From Verrucomicrobiota bacterium (lineage in GTDB: Bacteria > Verrucomicrobiota > Verrucomicrobiia > Limisphaerales > CAIMTB01), in assembly GCA_963205105.1 (NCBI GenBank), contig CAUJJW010000003.1, positions 1 through 64,000 of the forward strand: a stretch of DNA of 64,000 bases, written 5' to 3'. Each line of letters begins with the position of its first letter. Within the stretch, counting starts at the first letter, position 1. This document shows, one piece after another, positions 22,483-29,291 of the stretch. A model generated the notes under the pieces. That model was not told the DNA's origin. It searched no databases and saw only the letters and a list, made by a program, of their open reading frames with translations. The position numbers and the translations under genes are program-made.

Positions 22483-23082
22483 TCATCTTCCTGTGGGCCC
22501 ACCCCCGATCCGCACCCATTCACCCTCCCACACCCCGCGGCGCGCTTCGCGGGCCTCCTTTTCCGCCGCCAGCAATTGCACCTGGTCCTGAACCGGCAGG
22601 CTCTTGAGCGAGGAATCGTGCACGATCACCATGCCTTCGCGCAGCAGCGCGATCCCGAGGTTCGTCCCCGCCAGATACACCCCGCCCAACCCACTCCCCT
22701 CCGGCACCATGAAGGTGTAGGCGATGCGGACGTCGTTCGAGATGGCCAACGATTTCAGGAAACCCTGGCTCCGCTTGAAGACCGCCGCGCGTTCGCTCCG
22801 CGGATGCCTCGAAGGCGGCGGCCCCAGCACTCCGGCAATGCGAAACGTCACCGTCGCCCCCTGCTCGTTGCGCACGATCACCGAATCGCCCGCCGGCACC
22901 CGGATCACCCGGCCCGTCGCTTCACCCACAATCGGCAGCGTCTCCGTCTCGGCCCGTCGCAACGTCTCCATCCATTCCTCGGCCGGCGCGAACCATACCC
23001 GGTTGGCATACAGCCACGCCCCCAGAGCGATGAGCGCGGCGCCGATCCCGACTTTCACCGCATAATGGAGAAACCAGAACAT
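22483..23082 (-). CDS. Membrane-anchored staphylococcal-nuclease-fold (thermonuclease-like) protein
   Basis: 199 residues from the ATG at 23082. Residues about 8-28 are a membrane anchor (VKVGIGAALIALGAWLY). The rest has the SNase/OB-fold layout: GRVIRVPAGDSVIV, VTFRIAGVLGPPP, SLAISNDVRIAY and the closing GIALLREGMVIVHD. In active nucleases an Arg-Glu-Arg set surrounds calcium; I cannot assign all three here. It may therefore be a degenerate binding protein. It follows the membrane protein gene at 23088 by 5 bp. Confidence 0.7.
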   Translation of the reverse strand: MFWFLHYAVKVGIGAALIALGAWLYANRVWFAPAEEWMETLRRAETETLPIVGEATGRVIRVPAGDSVIVRNEQGATVTFRIAGVLGPPPSRHPRSERAAVFKRSQGFLKSLAISNDVRIAYTFMVPEGSGLGGVYLAGTNLGIALLREGMVIVHDSSLKSLPVQDQVQLLAAEKEAREARRGVWEGEWVRIGGGPTGR

Positions 23083-23087
23083 GCGGG

Positions 23088-24002
23088 TCAGTCCTCCAAG
23101 GTTCCCGACCACAACACTTTCAAGCGCTCCGACCAACGGAGCTTGCGCCGGGCGGTCAGCGTGGGAGCGGCAGCCGCGGCTTCCTCATTTCGAAAGGCCG
23201 GGGCCGGTGATGTCTGGGTCGACGATGGCTCGGAGATGACCATCGATGCCGCGTGGTCGGGCGTGTCGATCGCTGCCTCCGGGACGCTCAAGGCCGGTTC
23301 CATCTCGGTGTTTGTCGGTCGATCCAGAGCCACACGAGGGCTCGCCGATCCTGCAGCCGGTGCAGGAGTCGCTGCCGACGTTCCCTCAAAAATCCGAATG
23401 CCTGAATTTCGCGCGGGCCGTGGGGCCGGAGGCGCCGCAGGAACCGCCAGAATCTGTGGCGTGGGAGGCGTTTCCCGCTGCTGGGACAGAATCAGGAGTT
23501 GAACCTCCGCCCTGGAGTGGAGTTTGGGCTCCCGACCGTGCTGGCGCAGGATCTTCCAGGCGCGGAGGCAATTCTCGGCGTTTTCAAAGCGCCACACTTC
23601 GCGGGCAAACACCTTCTCCAACCAGGAACCCGGCCGTGCCTGGTTCAATCCCAGAACGAAAGCCCCAGGCAAATCGGGATGTCGCACCCCCTCCAGGAAG
23701 GCAAAAAACAAGGCCAACCTCCGCCAGCGTCGCAGAGCCAGCTTGTGCGCGAATTGGAGGGTCGAATTGGTGAAATCCGCCGGGTGGCCGGTCGTGAAGG
23801 CACCCGTCAGCGGTTCCGCCATCCAATGCCCCACCCACGGCGCCCAAACCACGGCGTTCGCAATGCCAACGATCACCGCGAGCGCCAGGTAGCCGGCATC
23901 CGTTGTGCCCTCGGTCTGAGCAAACGGGCCAGCCACTTCAATCGCCTTGCCGAACACAACAAACAACGCGAAGCCGAACAGCACTCGAAGGATGGCAAGC
24001 AT
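23088..24002 (-). CDS. Membrane protein of unknown function with proline/alanine-rich tail
   Basis: 304 residues. Two hydrophobic helices lie at about 2-24 (AILRVLFGFALFVVFGKA) and 38-58 (YLALAVIVGIANAVVWAPWV). A charged middle region (about 85-175) contains GLNQARPGSWLEKVF and ENCLRAWKILRQHGREP, a probable helical domain. The last third is a disordered Pro/Ala/Ser stretch ending in basic residues. It is packed between the PilT-type ATPase (2 bp) and the nuclease-fold gene (5 bp), so the three are likely cotranscribed. I do not recognise the family. Confidence 0.6.
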   Translation of the reverse strand: MLAILRVLFGFALFVVFGKAIEVAGPFAQTEGTTDAGYLALAVIVGIANAVVWAPWVGHWMAEPLTGAFTTGHPADFTNSTLQFAHKLALRRWRRLALFFAFLEGVRHPDLPGAFVLGLNQARPGSWLEKVFAREVWRFENAENCLRAWKILRQHGREPKLHSRAEVQLLILSQQRETPPTPQILAVPAAPPAPRPARNSGIRIFEGTSAATPAPAAGSASPRVALDRPTNTEMEPALSVPEAAIDTPDHAASMVISEPSSTQTSPAPAFRNEEAAAAAPTLTARRKLRWSERLKVLWSGTLED

Positions 24003-24004
24003 GG

Positions 24005-25126
24005 TTAGCGTCCCCGGTCAGGTCGGAGAATGGCCTGCGGATTGACGATGCCCCGCAGGTGCATGTCCAGGGCATGCCGGTTGACCGCGTAATGCTTCGC
24101 CGTTTCCTCGGTGATCACCCCGGCCACCAGCAGCTCCATCAGGTACTGGTCAAAGGTGTGCATCCCCACATGGGTCGAGGCTTCGATGATCCCATGCAGC
24201 AGATGCAGTTCGTTCCCCGCAATCGCCTCCTGGACCCCGGCGTCCCGCTTCAAAATCTCCAGGCACGGCGTGCGAGCTCCGCCCGTGTTGGGGATCAGGC
24301 GTTGTTGAACCACCCCGATCAGGTTCCGTGCAAGAAGAGCACTGACGCTGTCCTGCTCCCCTGCCGGATAGAATTCCCGGATGCGGGCGATCGATTGAGC
24401 CACGGAATCCGCGTGCAGCGTTGAAATCACCAGGTGCCCCGTCTCCGCCGCCTGCATGCAGGCCCAGATACTGTCCCGATCCCGCAGCTCACCCACCACG
24501 ATGACATTGGGATCCTGACGCATCGCGTTCCGGATGCCGTCGGCGAAGCTCCCCGTGTCGACCCCCACCTCGCGCTGCTCGAAGTGCGCCAAGGCATCCT
24601 CAAACACGTACTCGATGGGGTCCTCGATGGTGATGATCCGGAGCGCCCGCCGCGCATTGAGATCCTGAACCAACGCCCGCAAAGTCGTGCTCTTCCCCTG
24701 GCCCGTCGGCCCCGTCACCAGCAGCAGCCCGCGCGGTTGCTCCGCCAACCCAGCCAGCGACAACGGCAAGTGCAGTTCCTCCAACCGCATCCGATGTTGG
24801 GGAACCACCCGGAACGAAAACGACTGCCGCCCCCGTTGCTTGCTGAAATTCGCCCGATACCGCTCCTCGCCAAAATAGAACGCCGTGTCGACTTCCCTCT
24901 CCCGCAAGATCCGCCCCTGAAGCTCCGGCGTGAACACATCCATGAACCACGAGGTCAGTGTCACGTCGTCCGGGATCGGAAACTCCGCCTCCGACACCGT
25001 CTCCAACCGGCCCTCCACCCGGATGATGAATGGATGCCCCGCCCTCCCATGAATGTCGGATGCCTGCCGTCCCCTCGACCACGCAATCAACCGTCCCAAC
25101 GGCCTGTGAGCCTCGATGCGTTCCAT
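24005..25126 (-). CDS. PilT-type secretion/retraction ATPase
   Basis: 373 residues. Members are hexameric ATPases that retract type IV pili. The N-terminal PAS-like domain (ASDIHGRAGHPFIIRVEG) is followed by Walker A GPTGQGKST (139-147), the Asp box IITIEDPIEY, Walker B VIVVGELRD and the His box TGHLVISTLHADS. The C-terminal part has the AIR-like position replaced by variable sequence. No pilin, PilB or PilC gene lies beside it; its neighbours are a membrane protein and a nuclease-fold protein. PilT versus PilU cannot be decided. Confidence 0.9.
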   Translation of the reverse strand: MERIEAHRPLGRLIAWSRGRQASDIHGRAGHPFIIRVEGRLETVSEAEFPIPDDVTLTSWFMDVFTPELQGRILREREVDTAFYFGEERYRANFSKQRGRQSFSFRVVPQHRMRLEELHLPLSLAGLAEQPRGLLLVTGPTGQGKSTTLRALVQDLNARRALRIITIEDPIEYVFEDALAHFEQREVGVDTGSFADGIRNAMRQDPNVIVVGELRDRDSIWACMQAAETGHLVISTLHADSVAQSIARIREFYPAGEQDSVSALLARNLIGVVQQRLIPNTGGARTPCLEILKRDAGVQEAIAGNELHLLHGIIEASTHVGMHTFDQYLMELLVAGVITEETAKHYAVNRHALDMHLRGIVNPQAILRPDRGR

Positions 25127-25201: not shown

Positions 25202-25960
25202 TTAGTGCCGCGCCGGGATCGCCTCCAACCGCGGCAGCGTCGTCGTCTCCGCGAATTCCAGGTCCTCGGGAAAATCGAGTTCCGTCCAGGGAATGCCGGT
25301 GACGTCCTCGTAGCCGAACACCCCTGCGAGAACGAGCGACCGGAGGACTTCGTCGTACGATTCCTTGCGGCGTTCACCCACCATCCGGGCCTCGGTTTCG
25401 CGGACGATCCCATCCAGGCCGGCGCGATCCATTTTGAAGAACCCGATCGATTCACCCACAAGTTCCGCGGTCCCCGTCCATTTCTTGCGGAATTCAACGG
25501 GTTTTCCACCACTCACCGGCACCAGAACCGGATCATCATCGGCTGTCGAGTAACCACGATCGATGAGCAGGGTGGAGCCGTGGGCGGACCCCATCAACCG
25601 GCCCATCAGGCGATGATCATACAGCACGTCGCCGTCCATCAGCAGCATGGGCTCACGCGCGGCGCGGATCAGGGGCAGCGATGCCGCCATGCTGATGACG
25701 CTGCCTTCGAGGTAGGCGTCGTTGAAGATTTCGATGATCTCCAGTCCCGTCTTCCGGGACACCGCCTGAATGGCCCCCGCCACCACCTCCCGCAGGTGTC
25801 CCGTCACGATGTGGAGGCGGCGAATGCCAGCCCACACCAGGAGTTCGGCATGACGTTCGAGCAGCGTCTTGCCCCCGATCTCGAGCAGAATCTTGGGGCA
25901 CTCGGCGGAGAGTTGTCCCAATCGAAAACCGCGTCCAGCGGCGTACACAATCGCATCCAT
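25202..25960 (-). CDS. NTP transferase (phosphocholine/inositol-phosphate cytidylyltransferase-like)
   Basis: 252 residues from the ATG at 25960. The nucleotide-binding loop is YAAGRGFRLG, followed by PKILLEIGGKTLLERH and LLMDGDVLYD, the metal-binding Asp motif. The C-terminal WTELDFPEDLEFAE closes the fold. This is the LicC/MobA-like branch, which activates small phosphorylated alcohols with CTP. Its place next to a CDP-alcohol phosphotransferase suggests that it makes the CDP-alcohol donor. It starts 16 bp after the flippase-like gene and is the last gene of a three-gene operon. The alcohol is unknown. Confidence 0.82.
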   Translation of the reverse strand: MDAIVYAAGRGFRLGQLSAECPKILLEIGGKTLLERHAELLVWAGIRRLHIVTGHLREVVAGAIQAVSRKTGLEIIEIFNDAYLEGSVISMAASLPLIRAAREPMLLMDGDVLYDHRLMGRLMGSAHGSTLLIDRGYSTADDDPVLVPVSGGKPVEFRKKWTGTAELVGESIGFFKMDRAGLDGIVRETEARMVGERRKESYDEVLRSLVLAGVFGYEDVTGIPWTELDFPEDLEFAETTTLPRLEAIPARH

Positions 25961-25976
25961 ACGAACGACGATTACA

Positions 25977-27005
25977 CTATTGGCCCCGGGTCCTGTTCCA
26001 GTCCCGACCTGACAAATTTCCGTCAACCGCCGGGCGTGCCCCTCCCCAGAATGCCAGCAGCGCCCACCCCACCGCCGCGTACAGCAGTTCGCGCACCCGC
26101 CGCAGCACCGCATAGGTCGGACCGAACAGCGCCGGAGCCCCCACCCACCTGCCGATGAGAACAATGCCTGACTCCTGCACTCCCAACGCCCCAGGAACCC
26201 AAAGCCCCACCACCTTGACCACCCCGGTGAACGACTCCAGCACCAGCGCCTGATTCCAACTCAGCGGCATGCCCAAAAGCTGCCCCGCCAGATACACCTC
26301 CACGGTGTCCAGCAGCCATCCCGCGAAAAACCCGGCGGTGCAGACCGCGAACCGCAGTCGGCGCGCACGATAGAACCCCGCCACAATGCGATCCATCGAC
26401 TCCAACCCGGCGCGCCTGGCCGCCACACGGCGCGACCGAATCCCCAACCGCTCCATCCAGCCCAGCAGCGTCGAGGCCACACCACGACGCTGCAGCCACA
26501 GCAACAGCCCCACCACCCCGCACCCTCCCGCCACTACCAGAACCAGCCCCCAAGCCAATCCCCGCTCCCGCCCCTCGCCCCGGATCACCAGGTAGGCGCC
26601 CGCACCGGCGATCAGAAACAACACCTGCCCGATCGTTTGGGCCGTCTTCGAAATCAGGGCGGCGGCTGTCGACTCCGAGGCTTGCACCCCCTCCCGTTGG
26701 AGCAGCAGCACCTTGACCGCTTCCCCGCCGACGTACGCCGTCGGCACCAGGTTGTTCACCGCCTCGCCGCACCACCGGATTCGAAACATCCGCCAAAAGC
26801 CAACCCCCGTCGGGCTCCCGAACGACATGCGCCAAGCCCAGGCGTCCACCACGTACACGACAAAGTACGGCACCAACAGCAACACCCCGAGATACCCCAG
26901 CCCCTTCAAAGCGCCCCCTACCGCCACCCAATCCGTCTGGCGGAGGTACAGTGAAAACACCAACACGCCGACCAGCAGCGCCAGCCACCTGCCCCAACCC
27001 TTCAC
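25977..27005 (-). CDS. Flippase-like integral membrane protein (lysylphosphatidylglycerol synthase TM family)
   Basis: 342 residues with about eight predicted membrane helices, beginning with LALLVGVLVFSLYLR. The conserved arrangement EAVNNLVPTAYVGGEAVK and WVPGALGVQESGIVLI identifies the UPF0104/AglD2 family. Members include the membrane half of aminoacyl-phosphatidylglycerol flippases and proteins that act in lipid or glycolipid transport. It overlaps the CDP-alcohol phosphotransferase gene by 4 bp, so a role in moving the lipid made by its neighbours is a reasonable inference. Confidence 0.85.
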   Translation of the reverse strand: MKGWGRWLALLVGVLVFSLYLRQTDWVAVGGALKGLGYLGVLLLVPYFVVYVVDAWAWRMSFGSPTGVGFWRMFRIRWCGEAVNNLVPTAYVGGEAVKVLLLQREGVQASESTAAALISKTAQTIGQVLFLIAGAGAYLVIRGEGRERGLAWGLVLVVAGGCGVVGLLLWLQRRGVASTLLGWMERLGIRSRRVAARRAGLESMDRIVAGFYRARRLRFAVCTAGFFAGWLLDTVEVYLAGQLLGMPLSWNQALVLESFTGVVKVVGLWVPGALGVQESGIVLIGRWVGAPALFGPTYAVLRRVRELLYAAVGWALLAFWGGARPAVDGNLSGRDWNRTRGQ

Positions 27006-28147
27006 GCGGCACCCCGCCGATCCGGGACCTCACGCCACTGAAGGCACCCCAGCAGCGCCCAAAACACATGGCTGCCGATCGCCGCCAGCCAAAGAAACAC
27101 CTCCAGCCGATCGACACAGGCCAGCGCCAACACCAGCACTGAAAAATCCCGGTTGGTCGCCGCATCCAGAAAGCGCCCAAGTAAGCGGTTCCCATCCTTC
27201 CCCGCTGGTCGGCGCATGCCACGCAACACCATCAGGAAAGACATCAGCGCCCCCACAATCGCCGCCAACCCCAGCCAGCCCACCGGCGCCTCCGAACCGT
27301 CCCGGGCCAATCCCACCGCGATGCCGGCAAACACCGACACATGCACCACCTGGTCGCCGATCAAATCCAGCCATTTCCCCAGGGGCGATTCCTTGAAGAC
27401 GATCCGCGCCACATCGCCATCCACGCAGTCCAGGACCGCCGACAGCTGAAACAAAAGCCCGGCCGCGATGGCCCATTCCCGTTGCCCCACCCCGAACAGG
27501 ACTCCCGCCATCACCCCCAGAACAATCGAGGCCAGCGAGATCTGGTTGGGCGTCACCCAGGTTCGACTCAACCATCGTGCCAGAGGCCGGCCCACCGGCC
27601 GGTTGAATACCCGGTCCACCCAGCCATCCGACGAACTGGTCAGCGATCCCCACAGCACGCGAGCCGCCTGCCTGGCCTCCGCTTCGTTCCGAACCCAGCA
27701 AGCCACCCCCTCCGCTCGCACCGGCACATTTCCCGCCAGGGATTGTTCCCAGTCGCCTGCAGCATCAACCACCACCCCCACCGGAAACGCTTCCCCCTTC
27801 GCCCCAACCAATCGGTTCGGCCCGTCCGCCAACCGCTTCAGGTCCGCCACCTGAACCAACACCTCCGCCCGCAGGATCAACGTCGGTCCCTGGATCGGCG
27901 GGAGCTCGTGAACCACGGAAAATGTCACCCCCCAAACCTGGGCCCTGGGGGCCGCCGGAATCGGCTCCCGTCCAACCACCTGGATGTCGCGGTAGCCCGC
28001 CCGATGCAGGGCCACCAGCAGCCGGTCCAACACGGTCAGTGCCGCGACGTTTAGCTCTGACGTCCCAGGCGCGAGGATCACCACCGCGGTGAGAGCAGAC
28101 TGGGGTACCAACTCAACCGACTTGGGGAATGAATTCGCGACGGACAT
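27002..28147 (-). CDS. CDP-alcohol phosphotransferase with degenerate nucleotidyltransferase N-domain
   Basis: 381 residues from the ATG at 28147. The C-terminal half has the CDP-alcohol phosphatidyltransferase signature: DCVDGDVAR, then GKWLDLIGD, giving the full D-x2-DG-x2-AR...G-x3-D-x3-D set; it is surrounded by about six membrane helices. The first 200 residues look like a nucleotidyltransferase (VVILAPGTSELNVAALTV, AGYRDIQVVG) but lack the G-rich phosphate loop. This layout resembles the fused inositol-phosphate cytidylyltransferase/DIPP synthase, with the active transferase supplied by the separate gene at 25202. The true start may be later than drawn. Confidence 0.85.
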   Translation of the reverse strand: MSVANSFPKSVELVPQSALTAVVILAPGTSELNVAALTVLDRLLVALHRAGYRDIQVVGREPIPAAPRAQVWGVTFSVVHELPPIQGPTLILRAEVLVQVADLKRLADGPNRLVGAKGEAFPVGVVVDAAGDWEQSLAGNVPVRAEGVACWVRNEAEARQAARVLWGSLTSSSDGWVDRVFNRPVGRPLARWLSRTWVTPNQISLASIVLGVMAGVLFGVGQREWAIAAGLLFQLSAVLDCVDGDVARIVFKESPLGKWLDLIGDQVVHVSVFAGIAVGLARDGSEAPVGWLGLAAIVGALMSFLMVLRGMRRPAGKDGNRLLGRFLDAATNRDFSVLVLALACVDRLEVFLWLAAIGSHVFWALLGCLQWREVPDRRGAA

Positions 28148-28285: not shown

Positions 28286-28448
28286 CATTCTAAATCACTC
28301 TTTAGACATTGCCCCTCAGTGCTTTAGAAACCAAAAAGCGATTCCAAAGCGGCTTATTATCTATCTGTCTATTGACTTTATAGTTATGTATCGGAATTCT
28401 GTGGGCCGTCGCGACCAACATCGGCCCCGGATTCAACTCCTTCCCATC

Positions 28449-29291
28449 ATGAATACCGCTCTTCTGCCCACCCTCGCTCCTTCCACCGCCTTCCGCTCGA
28501 CACGAAACGCGCCTTCGCCAACACGCCGGTCCTTGGATCGAATCCTTGCCCCGCTGGATGAACTCGCCTGCACTTCCGATCATTTCCTCCGCAAACCGCT
28601 CGGACGCCACGCTGACGGTTCGATGGTCCTGCCGCGGTACCTGCATCTCGGCCCCCGAGGCGGTGGCGATTACGTGCGCCTGGGCATCTTCGCGTCCATT
28701 CACGGTGATGAACCCGAGGGCGCCCTGGCCCTGACCCGGTTTATCTCCGAACTCGAACGCCAACCGGAACTCGCCAAGGGCTACGCCATTTTCATCTACC
28801 CCGTGTGCAATCCCACCGGGTTCGAGGACAACACCCGACATTCACGCTCCGGCAAGGACCTGAACCGCGAGTTCTGGCGCGATTCGGCTGAACCCGAAAT
28901 CCGCTGGCTGGAGACCGAGATCTGGACCCACGCCTTTCATGGAATCATCAATCTGCACTCCGATGACACCAGTCAGGGGCTTTATGGATTCGTGAATGGC
29001 GAGGTGCTTTCCGAGTACTTGCTCGAGCCCGCGCTTCAATCCGCCGAAGCCCATCTCCCGCGCGACCGCCGTCGCCGAATCGACGGTTTCCAGGCCAAGC
29101 GCGGCATGATCTACGAATGCTACGAGGGTGTGCTTCGCTCGGTTCCCGGGCTGAGTCCGGCTCCTTTCGAGCTGACACTGGAAACCCCGCACAAGGCGCC
29201 CCTGCATCGCCAGGTCGAAGCTTTCAACGCCGCCCTGCAAACCATCCTGGTCGAATACCGTTACCTCACGGCGGTCGCCCAAGGCATCTAG
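28449..29291 (+). CDS. Succinylglutamate desuccinylase/aspartoacylase-family zinc hydrolase (M14 fold)
   Basis: 280 residues from the ATG at 28449. Zinc ligands are visible as HGDEPEG (His85, Glu88) and INLHSDD (His170); SGKDLNREF carries the substrate-binding Asn-Arg pair and the probable catalytic Glu lies in LTLETPHK. The family hydrolyses N-acyl amino acids or acts as a carboxypeptidase. No arginine catabolic genes are nearby, so the substrate is open. It stands alone, divergent from the lipid operon. Confidence 0.82.
   Translation: MNTALLPTLAPSTAFRSTRNAPSPTRRSLDRILAPLDELACTSDHFLRKPLGRHADGSMVLPRYLHLGPRGGGDYVRLGIFASIHGDEPEGALALTRFISELERQPELAKGYAIFIYPVCNPTGFEDNTRHSRSGKDLNREFWRDSAEPEIRWLETEIWTHAFHGIINLHSDDTSQGLYGFVNGEVLSEYLLEPALQSAEAHLPRDRRRRIDGFQAKRGMIYECYEGVLRSVPGLSPAPFELTLETPHKAPLHRQVEAFNAALQTILVEYRYLTAVAQGI

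Follow-up and report, generated by a model that had tools for sequence, protein, structure and literature searches.

The window analysed here, a stretch of 64,000 nucleotides from the draft genome of a Verrucomicrobiota bacterium (assembly GCA_963205105.1, contig CAUJJW010000003.1, positions 1 to 64,000), carries on its minus strand a three-gene operon at 25202-28147. The operon encodes a CDP-alcohol phosphotransferase (CDP-AP), a flippase-like polytopic membrane protein (FLP) and a stand-alone nucleotidyltransferase (NT) (Table 1), and we present evidence that it is probably a module for an aminophosphonate-type headgroup, with 2-aminoethylphosphonate (AEP) as the most likely substrate. The host genome, 8.18 Mb in 412 contigs and 93% complete, has four CDP-AP genes. 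An earlier reading of the same DNA, referred to below as the original prediction, had placed the three genes at these coordinates with the 4-bp overlap and the 16-bp gap, and its domain assignments for the three genes are borne out by Pfam. The NT matches PF12804 (E 4.6e-10) and PF00483 (E 5.6e-07), and the FLP matches PF03706 with 99.7 bits against a cut-off of 33.4; all Pfam matches quoted for the three proteins exceed the Pfam cut-offs. The FLP also matches the HpnL family TIGR03476 with 162 bits, which is under its cut-off of 195.65.

Table 1. Coordinates of the operon genes, their catalytic and pocket features, and the oxygenase genes found in loci of relatives
Feature	Coordinates	Strand	Basis
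CDP-alcohol phosphotransferase (CDP-AP), 381 aa	27002..28147	minus	ATG 28147, stop ending 27002; PF01066 E 7.4e-13
NT-like domain of CDP-AP without GxGxR-type signature, residues ~17-150	27698..28099	minus	alignment, model, fold match
CDP-AP catalytic motif D240-x2-DG-x2-AR-x8-G-x3-D-x3-D265	27353..27430	minus	complete motif, alignment
4-base overlap of CDP-AP stop with flippase start	27002..27005	minus	ORFs/sequence
LPG_synthase_TM/HpnL-like polytopic membrane protein (FLP), 342 aa, putative flippase	25977..27005	minus	GTG 27005; PF03706 E 2.7e-28
16-base gap, flippase-like gene to nucleotidyltransferase	25961..25976	minus	ORFs/sequence
Stand-alone nucleotidyltransferase (NT), 252 aa, PntC/LicC-like	25202..25960	minus	ATG 25960, stop ending 25202
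Asp109 codon (DGD motif), aligned with Tde-PntC Glu104	25634..25636	minus	alignments; D in 24/24 window-type NTs
Asp203 codon, aligned with Tde-PntC Glu196	25352..25354	minus	D in 24/24 window-type, E in 4/4 divergent-type NTs
2OG-Fe(II) oxygenase of relatives	L057 8546-9289; L055 4737-5519; L064 10831-11598		HalD/BesD-like Pfam and NCBIfam matches

Full-length or near-full-length homologues of the CDP-AP are encoded in 53 of the 320 genomes of the order, which are referred to as carriers; 56 genomes gave matches, and three of them with partial, C-terminal-only matches (G056, G297 and G298) were dropped before counting. The surroundings were retrieved for 40 of the 53 carriers, and all counts out of 40 loci refer to these. 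The CDP-AP and FLP genes form a same-strand pair in 37 of the 40 loci, and the complete order CDP-AP, FLP, NT is found in 27, with an NT of the window type in 23 (about 48-60% identity to the window NT) and of a divergent type in four (about 27-31%). The recurrence of both the pair and the triplet argues that the operon arrangement is more than chance. Clustering of the 40 loci and the window for further conserved genes returned, besides the three operon genes, mostly antisense shadow ORFs, as judged from their overlap. The real additions, seen in the loci of some relatives, are a 2OG-Fe(II) oxygenase and three phosphonate proteins, namely PEP mutase (PepM), phosphonopyruvate decarboxylase (Ppd) and AEP transaminase (AEPT).

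The link to phosphonate metabolism is seen in the neighbourhoods of the operon in three phyla. In several relatives, genes for Ppd, AEPT and a PepM protein fused to a nucleotidyltransferase domain follow the operon or stand divergently to it, and the scanned Verrucomicrobia examples of PepM, Ppd and AEPT all score above the NCBIfam cut-offs. A second scan, over named genomes, kept 80 loci of 130, and PepM matches lie within the retrieved stretch in 15 of the 80, partial and weak ones counted. The Nitrospira loci (n=28) run in one direction through genes for Ppd-like alpha, Ppd-like beta, AEPT-like, NT, CDP-AP and FLP; Ppd-like and AEPT-like matches are present in 27 of them, the exception being a contig of 3.25 kb, and one contig ends before the flippase gene. 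At the one planctomycete locus, the genes for CDP-AP, flippase, a PepM fusion and Ppd are consecutive.

Co-occurrence across the order points in the same direction. True PepM, defined as a match above the TIGR02320 cut-off, is encoded in 12 of the 320 genomes, all but one of which also have this CDP-AP (11/53 carriers versus 1/267 non-carriers, Fisher p 1.1e-8, phylogeny being ignored). AEPT is found in 31 of the 42 PepM-negative carriers versus 95 of the 266 other PepM-negative genomes (p 5.7e-6, again with phylogeny ignored), where the window genome (G000) was scored as positive though its edge-truncated match is under the cut-off. No alignment column separates the proteins of PepM-positive genomes from those of PepM-negative ones, either among NTs (11 versus 15) or among CDP-APs (10 versus 29), which is in line with one shared substrate for both groups; the power of this column test is low, with shuffled labels giving a mean of 0.004 separating columns for the NT (the CDP-AP labels were left unshuffled).

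Comparison of the NT with proteins of known structure provides the second line of evidence for AEP. Its best sequence match in the PDB is the PntC-AEPT protein 6pd1 (phmmer E 3.9e-10), its profile ranks PntC (5.8e-27) above LicC (1.6e-18) and the Thermotoga maritima protein 4jd0 (1.4e-14), and a fold search gives 6pd2 as the best match (E 9.6e-19), with PntC filling ranks 1 to 7 and 22-24% identity in the structural alignment. The signature and metal Asp residues A8, G9, R13, K23, D111 and D229 are invariant in 24/24 window-type sequences. Glu104 and Glu196 of Tde-PntC are described in PMC6697681 as placed to contact the amine of AEP, the LicC equivalents being D105 and D192. Both of these positions are acidic in all 58 informative stand-alone NTs, of which 26, including that of the window, have Asp/Asp and 32 have Asp/Glu; one sequence (L130) was too short to judge and was left out of the count. 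The acid pair is absent from the aligned rows of 4jd0 and MurU, as read from the alignment. The window NT thus shares with PntC (6pd1/6pd2, PMC6697681) the fold, the CTP-binding signature and acids at both amine-contact positions, and differs from it in being stand-alone, whereas PntC is fused to an AEP transaminase. With LicC (1jyk) it shares the fold and Asp at both amine-contact positions.

The nucleotidyltransferase domains fused to PepM look different. In all 14 fusions examined (L113, L115, L116, L119, L124-L127, L131-L133, L137, L156 and L180) the signature Arg is lost, being replaced by E in 12, Q in one and H in one, and position 109 is F or Y, so that the acidic amine contact is lost as well. 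With the signature Arg and this acid gone from the fused domains, the stand-alone NT would be the likelier active AEP cytidylyltransferase. The loss of the signature Arg also warns against assuming that all such fusions are active PntC enzymes.

From gene content, gene order, conserved motifs, neighbourhoods and co-occurrence we infer a substrate, an acceptor, a flipping step and a salvage route. The stand-alone NT would join CTP and a small phosphonate or phosphate that bears an amine, AEP being the likeliest, into a CMP-conjugate; the CDP-AP would then pass the headgroup to a membrane-associated acceptor; and the HpnL/LPG_synthase_TM protein would bring the resulting molecule to the outer leaflet. 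The relatives predicted to make AEP themselves retain PepM, Ppd and AEPT, often beside the same operon genes. The original prediction had listed AEP as one candidate and otherwise left the alcohol unnamed: context across three phyla and the NT pocket favour that candidate and narrow the choice to AEP or its isostere phosphoethanolamine. Its sequence of CDP-activation of a small alcohol (or phosphonate) followed by transfer gains support and flipping is probable, but the transfer to a lipid, one of the two acceptors that it proposed, is unproven.

Several observations weigh against this reading. The window contains no feature that identifies the substrate directly, and neither PepM (E 1e-60) nor Ppd (E 1e-40) was found in the window genome. 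The acid pair of the window NT is Asp/Asp as in LicC, not Glu/Glu as in Tde-PntC. No adjacent NT is present in 13 of the 40 loci, and the planctomycete locus shows no stand-alone NT, only a degenerate fused one. At the sole Nitrospira locus scanned against NCBIfam (L161), the Ppd-like proteins score 129.8 and 174.6 against a cut-off of 312.5 and the AEPT-like protein 345.1 against 360.8, and PepM lies within only 2 of the 28 Nitrospira stretches, once at 31% identity. AEPT is common in the order (138/320), much of it catabolic, and 11 PepM-negative carriers, of which 10 belong to a single family (f5), do not have it.

AEPT as proof of AEP synthesis was rejected, since its conserved neighbours in PepM-less genomes are those of breakdown: in 20 AEPT loci retrieved from the 31 PepM-negative carriers with AEPT, PhnA-like proteins are found in eight, PhnY-like in five and PbfA-like in five, one member of each cluster having been identified by NCBIfam. 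In the window genome itself, the phosphonoacetate hydrolase PhnA (473.7 bits, above its cut-off) comes immediately after a PhnW that is cut short by the end of its contig (contig C93, L191 1-3230), and this locus is predicted to encode AEP breakdown.

The lack of PepM and Ppd in the window genome would point to a headgroup from salvaged AEP or from phosphoethanolamine, and one of these two is the likely headgroup here. We tentatively suggest, as a possibility that we would not rate above its competitors taken together, a salvage pathway for phosphonolipids: bacteria unable to form C-P bonds would take AEP up from the environment, use a stand-alone PntC for its activation and incorporate it into their own membrane or surface lipids, and the same cells could also mineralise it by PhnW/PhnA. 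Such a pathway would have originated by repeated loss of PepM with the tailoring genes kept. PepM is undetected in 42 of the 53 carriers, the window genome among them, and nine changes of the PepM label are required on the tree of the CDP-APs, with Nitrospira labelled positive from the Ppd/AEPT-like neighbours. The window groups with its two PepM-negative congeners (98/90), and the Nitrospira and planctomycete rows beyond the root as drawn all carry phosphonate-type genes. In another genome (G096, L201 5527-8493), Ppd and AEPT lie beside a remnant of a PepM fusion and PepM itself was not detected, possibly reflecting decay of a phosphonate cluster. Repeated PepM loss fits both the tree and this locus, with the direction of change not proven by the tree.

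PepM and Ppd could instead be present and missed by the assembly, and the pathway would then be an ordinary de novo phosphonolipid pathway. A genome that is 93% complete in 412 contigs, with phnW cut at a contig edge, leaves room for this explanation. It appears improbable, as the gene flanking phnW is phnA, typical of AEP breakdown, the congeneric carriers G206 and G207 also gave no PepM or Ppd, and most carriers are without PepM.

A second alternative is that the PepM-less members use phosphoethanolamine, or phosphocholine, in a CDP-ethanolamine or CDP-choline route that adds the headgroup to an acceptor, either lipid or soluble. AEP and phosphoethanolamine are isosteres, the Asp/Asp pair of the NT equals D105/D192 of LicC, the second-best PDB match, and PepM is missing here. 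On the other hand, window-type stand-alone NTs from PepM-positive genomes have this Asp/Asp pair just as well, and a choline/ethanolamine kinase (PF01633) was found in only one of the 53 carriers and not in the window genome, a difference from LicC that leaves a choline kinase route without support and tells against the phosphocholine of the original prediction. Phosphatidylserine decarboxylase is encoded in 47 of the 53 carriers, including the window genome, so that ordinary phosphatidylethanolamine synthesis is available without the operon; we therefore rejected it as the operon's purpose. Taken together, these observations make the phosphoethanolamine route rather unlikely, and AEP remains the preferred substrate.

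The CDP-AP combines a complete catalytic motif with an N-terminal domain of an apparently inactive kind. Motif residues D243, G244, A247, R248 and G257 are invariant in 39/39 aligned sequences, and D240, D261 and D265 are kept in 38/39. A Pfam scan of the N-terminal ~150 residues gave no match, and the GxGxR-type signature, present in the separate NT, is absent there. The structure model (mean pLDDT 88.8) has as its best fold match AF2299 (E 3.1e-13), essentially over the whole length including the N-terminal domain, which argues that the degenerate nucleotidyltransferase domain is real; the sequence also matches AF2299 (4o6m) with a phmmer E of 1.1e-17. AF2299 is an archaeal CDP-AP with an N-terminal cytidylyltransferase-like domain, described in PMC4634129 with CDP-glycerol as donor. 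Both proteins (4o6m/4o6n/4q7c for AF2299) have a nucleotidyltransferase-like N-terminal domain and a CDP-AP domain of six helices in which the motif is complete, although genomic context and expected donor are not the same. The degenerate domain of the original prediction is thus upheld by alignment and model, and its likening to the fused IPCT/DIPPS enzyme is refined, the architecture being closer to AF2299 than to the active bifunctional protein.

The same comparison bears on an inositol-based alternative, in which the NT would be an inositol-1-phosphate cytidylyltransferase and the CDP-AP a di-myo-inositol-phosphate or PIP-type synthase. The best NCBIfam match of the CDP-AP is indeed the IPCT/DIPPS family (70.2 bits against a cut-off of 580), and 4mnd (IPCT/DIPPS), which shares the CDP-AP domain and the two-domain layout, is the fifth fold match of the model. 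We regard this alternative as highly improbable: the domain fused to the CDP-AP has no cytidylyltransferase signature, the predicted activity lying in the separate NT gene; the NT ranks PntC and LicC over the inositol enzymes, PntC also by fold; and the acid pair is lacking in 4jd0. Inositol-phosphate synthase (PF01658) was found in neither the window genome nor any other of the 53 carriers, so that inositol-1-phosphate, another candidate of the original prediction, has no support. The enzyme does occur in 9 of the 320 genomes of the order, but the difference between carriers and others (Fisher p 0.36) does not demonstrate avoidance.

The least secure part of the mechanism is the acceptor, for which lipid, ceramide-like and glycan molecules are all candidates. 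Only six membrane helices were read from the CDP-AP model, and PMC4634129 describes characterised six-helix CDP-APs as using soluble acceptors and neither AF2299 nor AfDIPP synthase as processing lipids. A membrane domain of six helices, as predicted here, speaks against diacylglycerol as the acceptor. The acceptor may therefore be soluble or a glycan rather than a lipid, with the HpnL-like protein exporting or serving a glycan-lipid intermediate, a possibility that overlaps with the aminophosphonate headgroup module and deserves attention, though we hold it to be the less probable one. The AF2299-like fold is consistent with such an acceptor, and a glycosyltransferase-like ORF, read from the ORFs, follows a Nitrospira operon (L161 9864-11102). 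However, the polytopic flippase-like protein that adjoins the CDP-AP in nearly all loci suggests a membrane-bound product, and locus clustering showed no conserved glycan gene beside the Verrucomicrobia operon.

A gene set of this kind is already known by prediction. A phosphonolipid cluster predicted in a lichen Nostoc comprises CDP-APT, NTPT, hpnL, OG-Fe(II), pepM, ppd and AEPT, with a homologue in Burkholderia (legend to Fig. 7 of PMC5987646, citing Yu et al. 2013). The window resembles it in having a CDP-alcohol transferase, an NTP transferase and an HpnL-like protein together, and relatives of the window also have pepM, ppd, AEPT and the 2OG-Fe(II) oxygenase. The window genome differs in lacking pepM and ppd, in having its transaminase in a separate locus of catabolic type, and in having no oxygenase gene beside the operon. 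Searches of open-licence papers, judged mainly by titles and the opening of abstracts, gave no PepM-less version that is combined with AEP breakdown in one genome. PMC6697681 calls enigmatic what happens downstream of AEP in pathways for cell-surface phosphonates. The operon is a compact, testable candidate that would cover activation, transfer and flipping, and in Verrucomicrobia, Nitrospira and a planctomycete its homologues are associated with phosphonate genes. Should the PepM-less members use salvaged AEP, their membranes would act as a so far overlooked sink for phosphonate from the environment, and surveys based on PepM would miss some of the bacteria that bear phosphonates.

The oxygenase gene lies directly upstream of the CDP-AP gene in five of the 40 loci (L052, L053, L055, L057 and L064), all from PepM-positive genomes, and its product is perhaps a hydroxylase of AEP or of the lipid. 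In the window, the operon is followed on the same strand (22483-25126) by genes for a T2SSE/PilT-like ATPase (24005-25126), a 304-aa protein that gave no Pfam match (23088-24002) and an SNase-domain protein (22483-23136). The divergent neighbour at 28386-29291 on the plus strand encodes an AstE/AspA-type deacylase or zinc carboxypeptidase-like protein.

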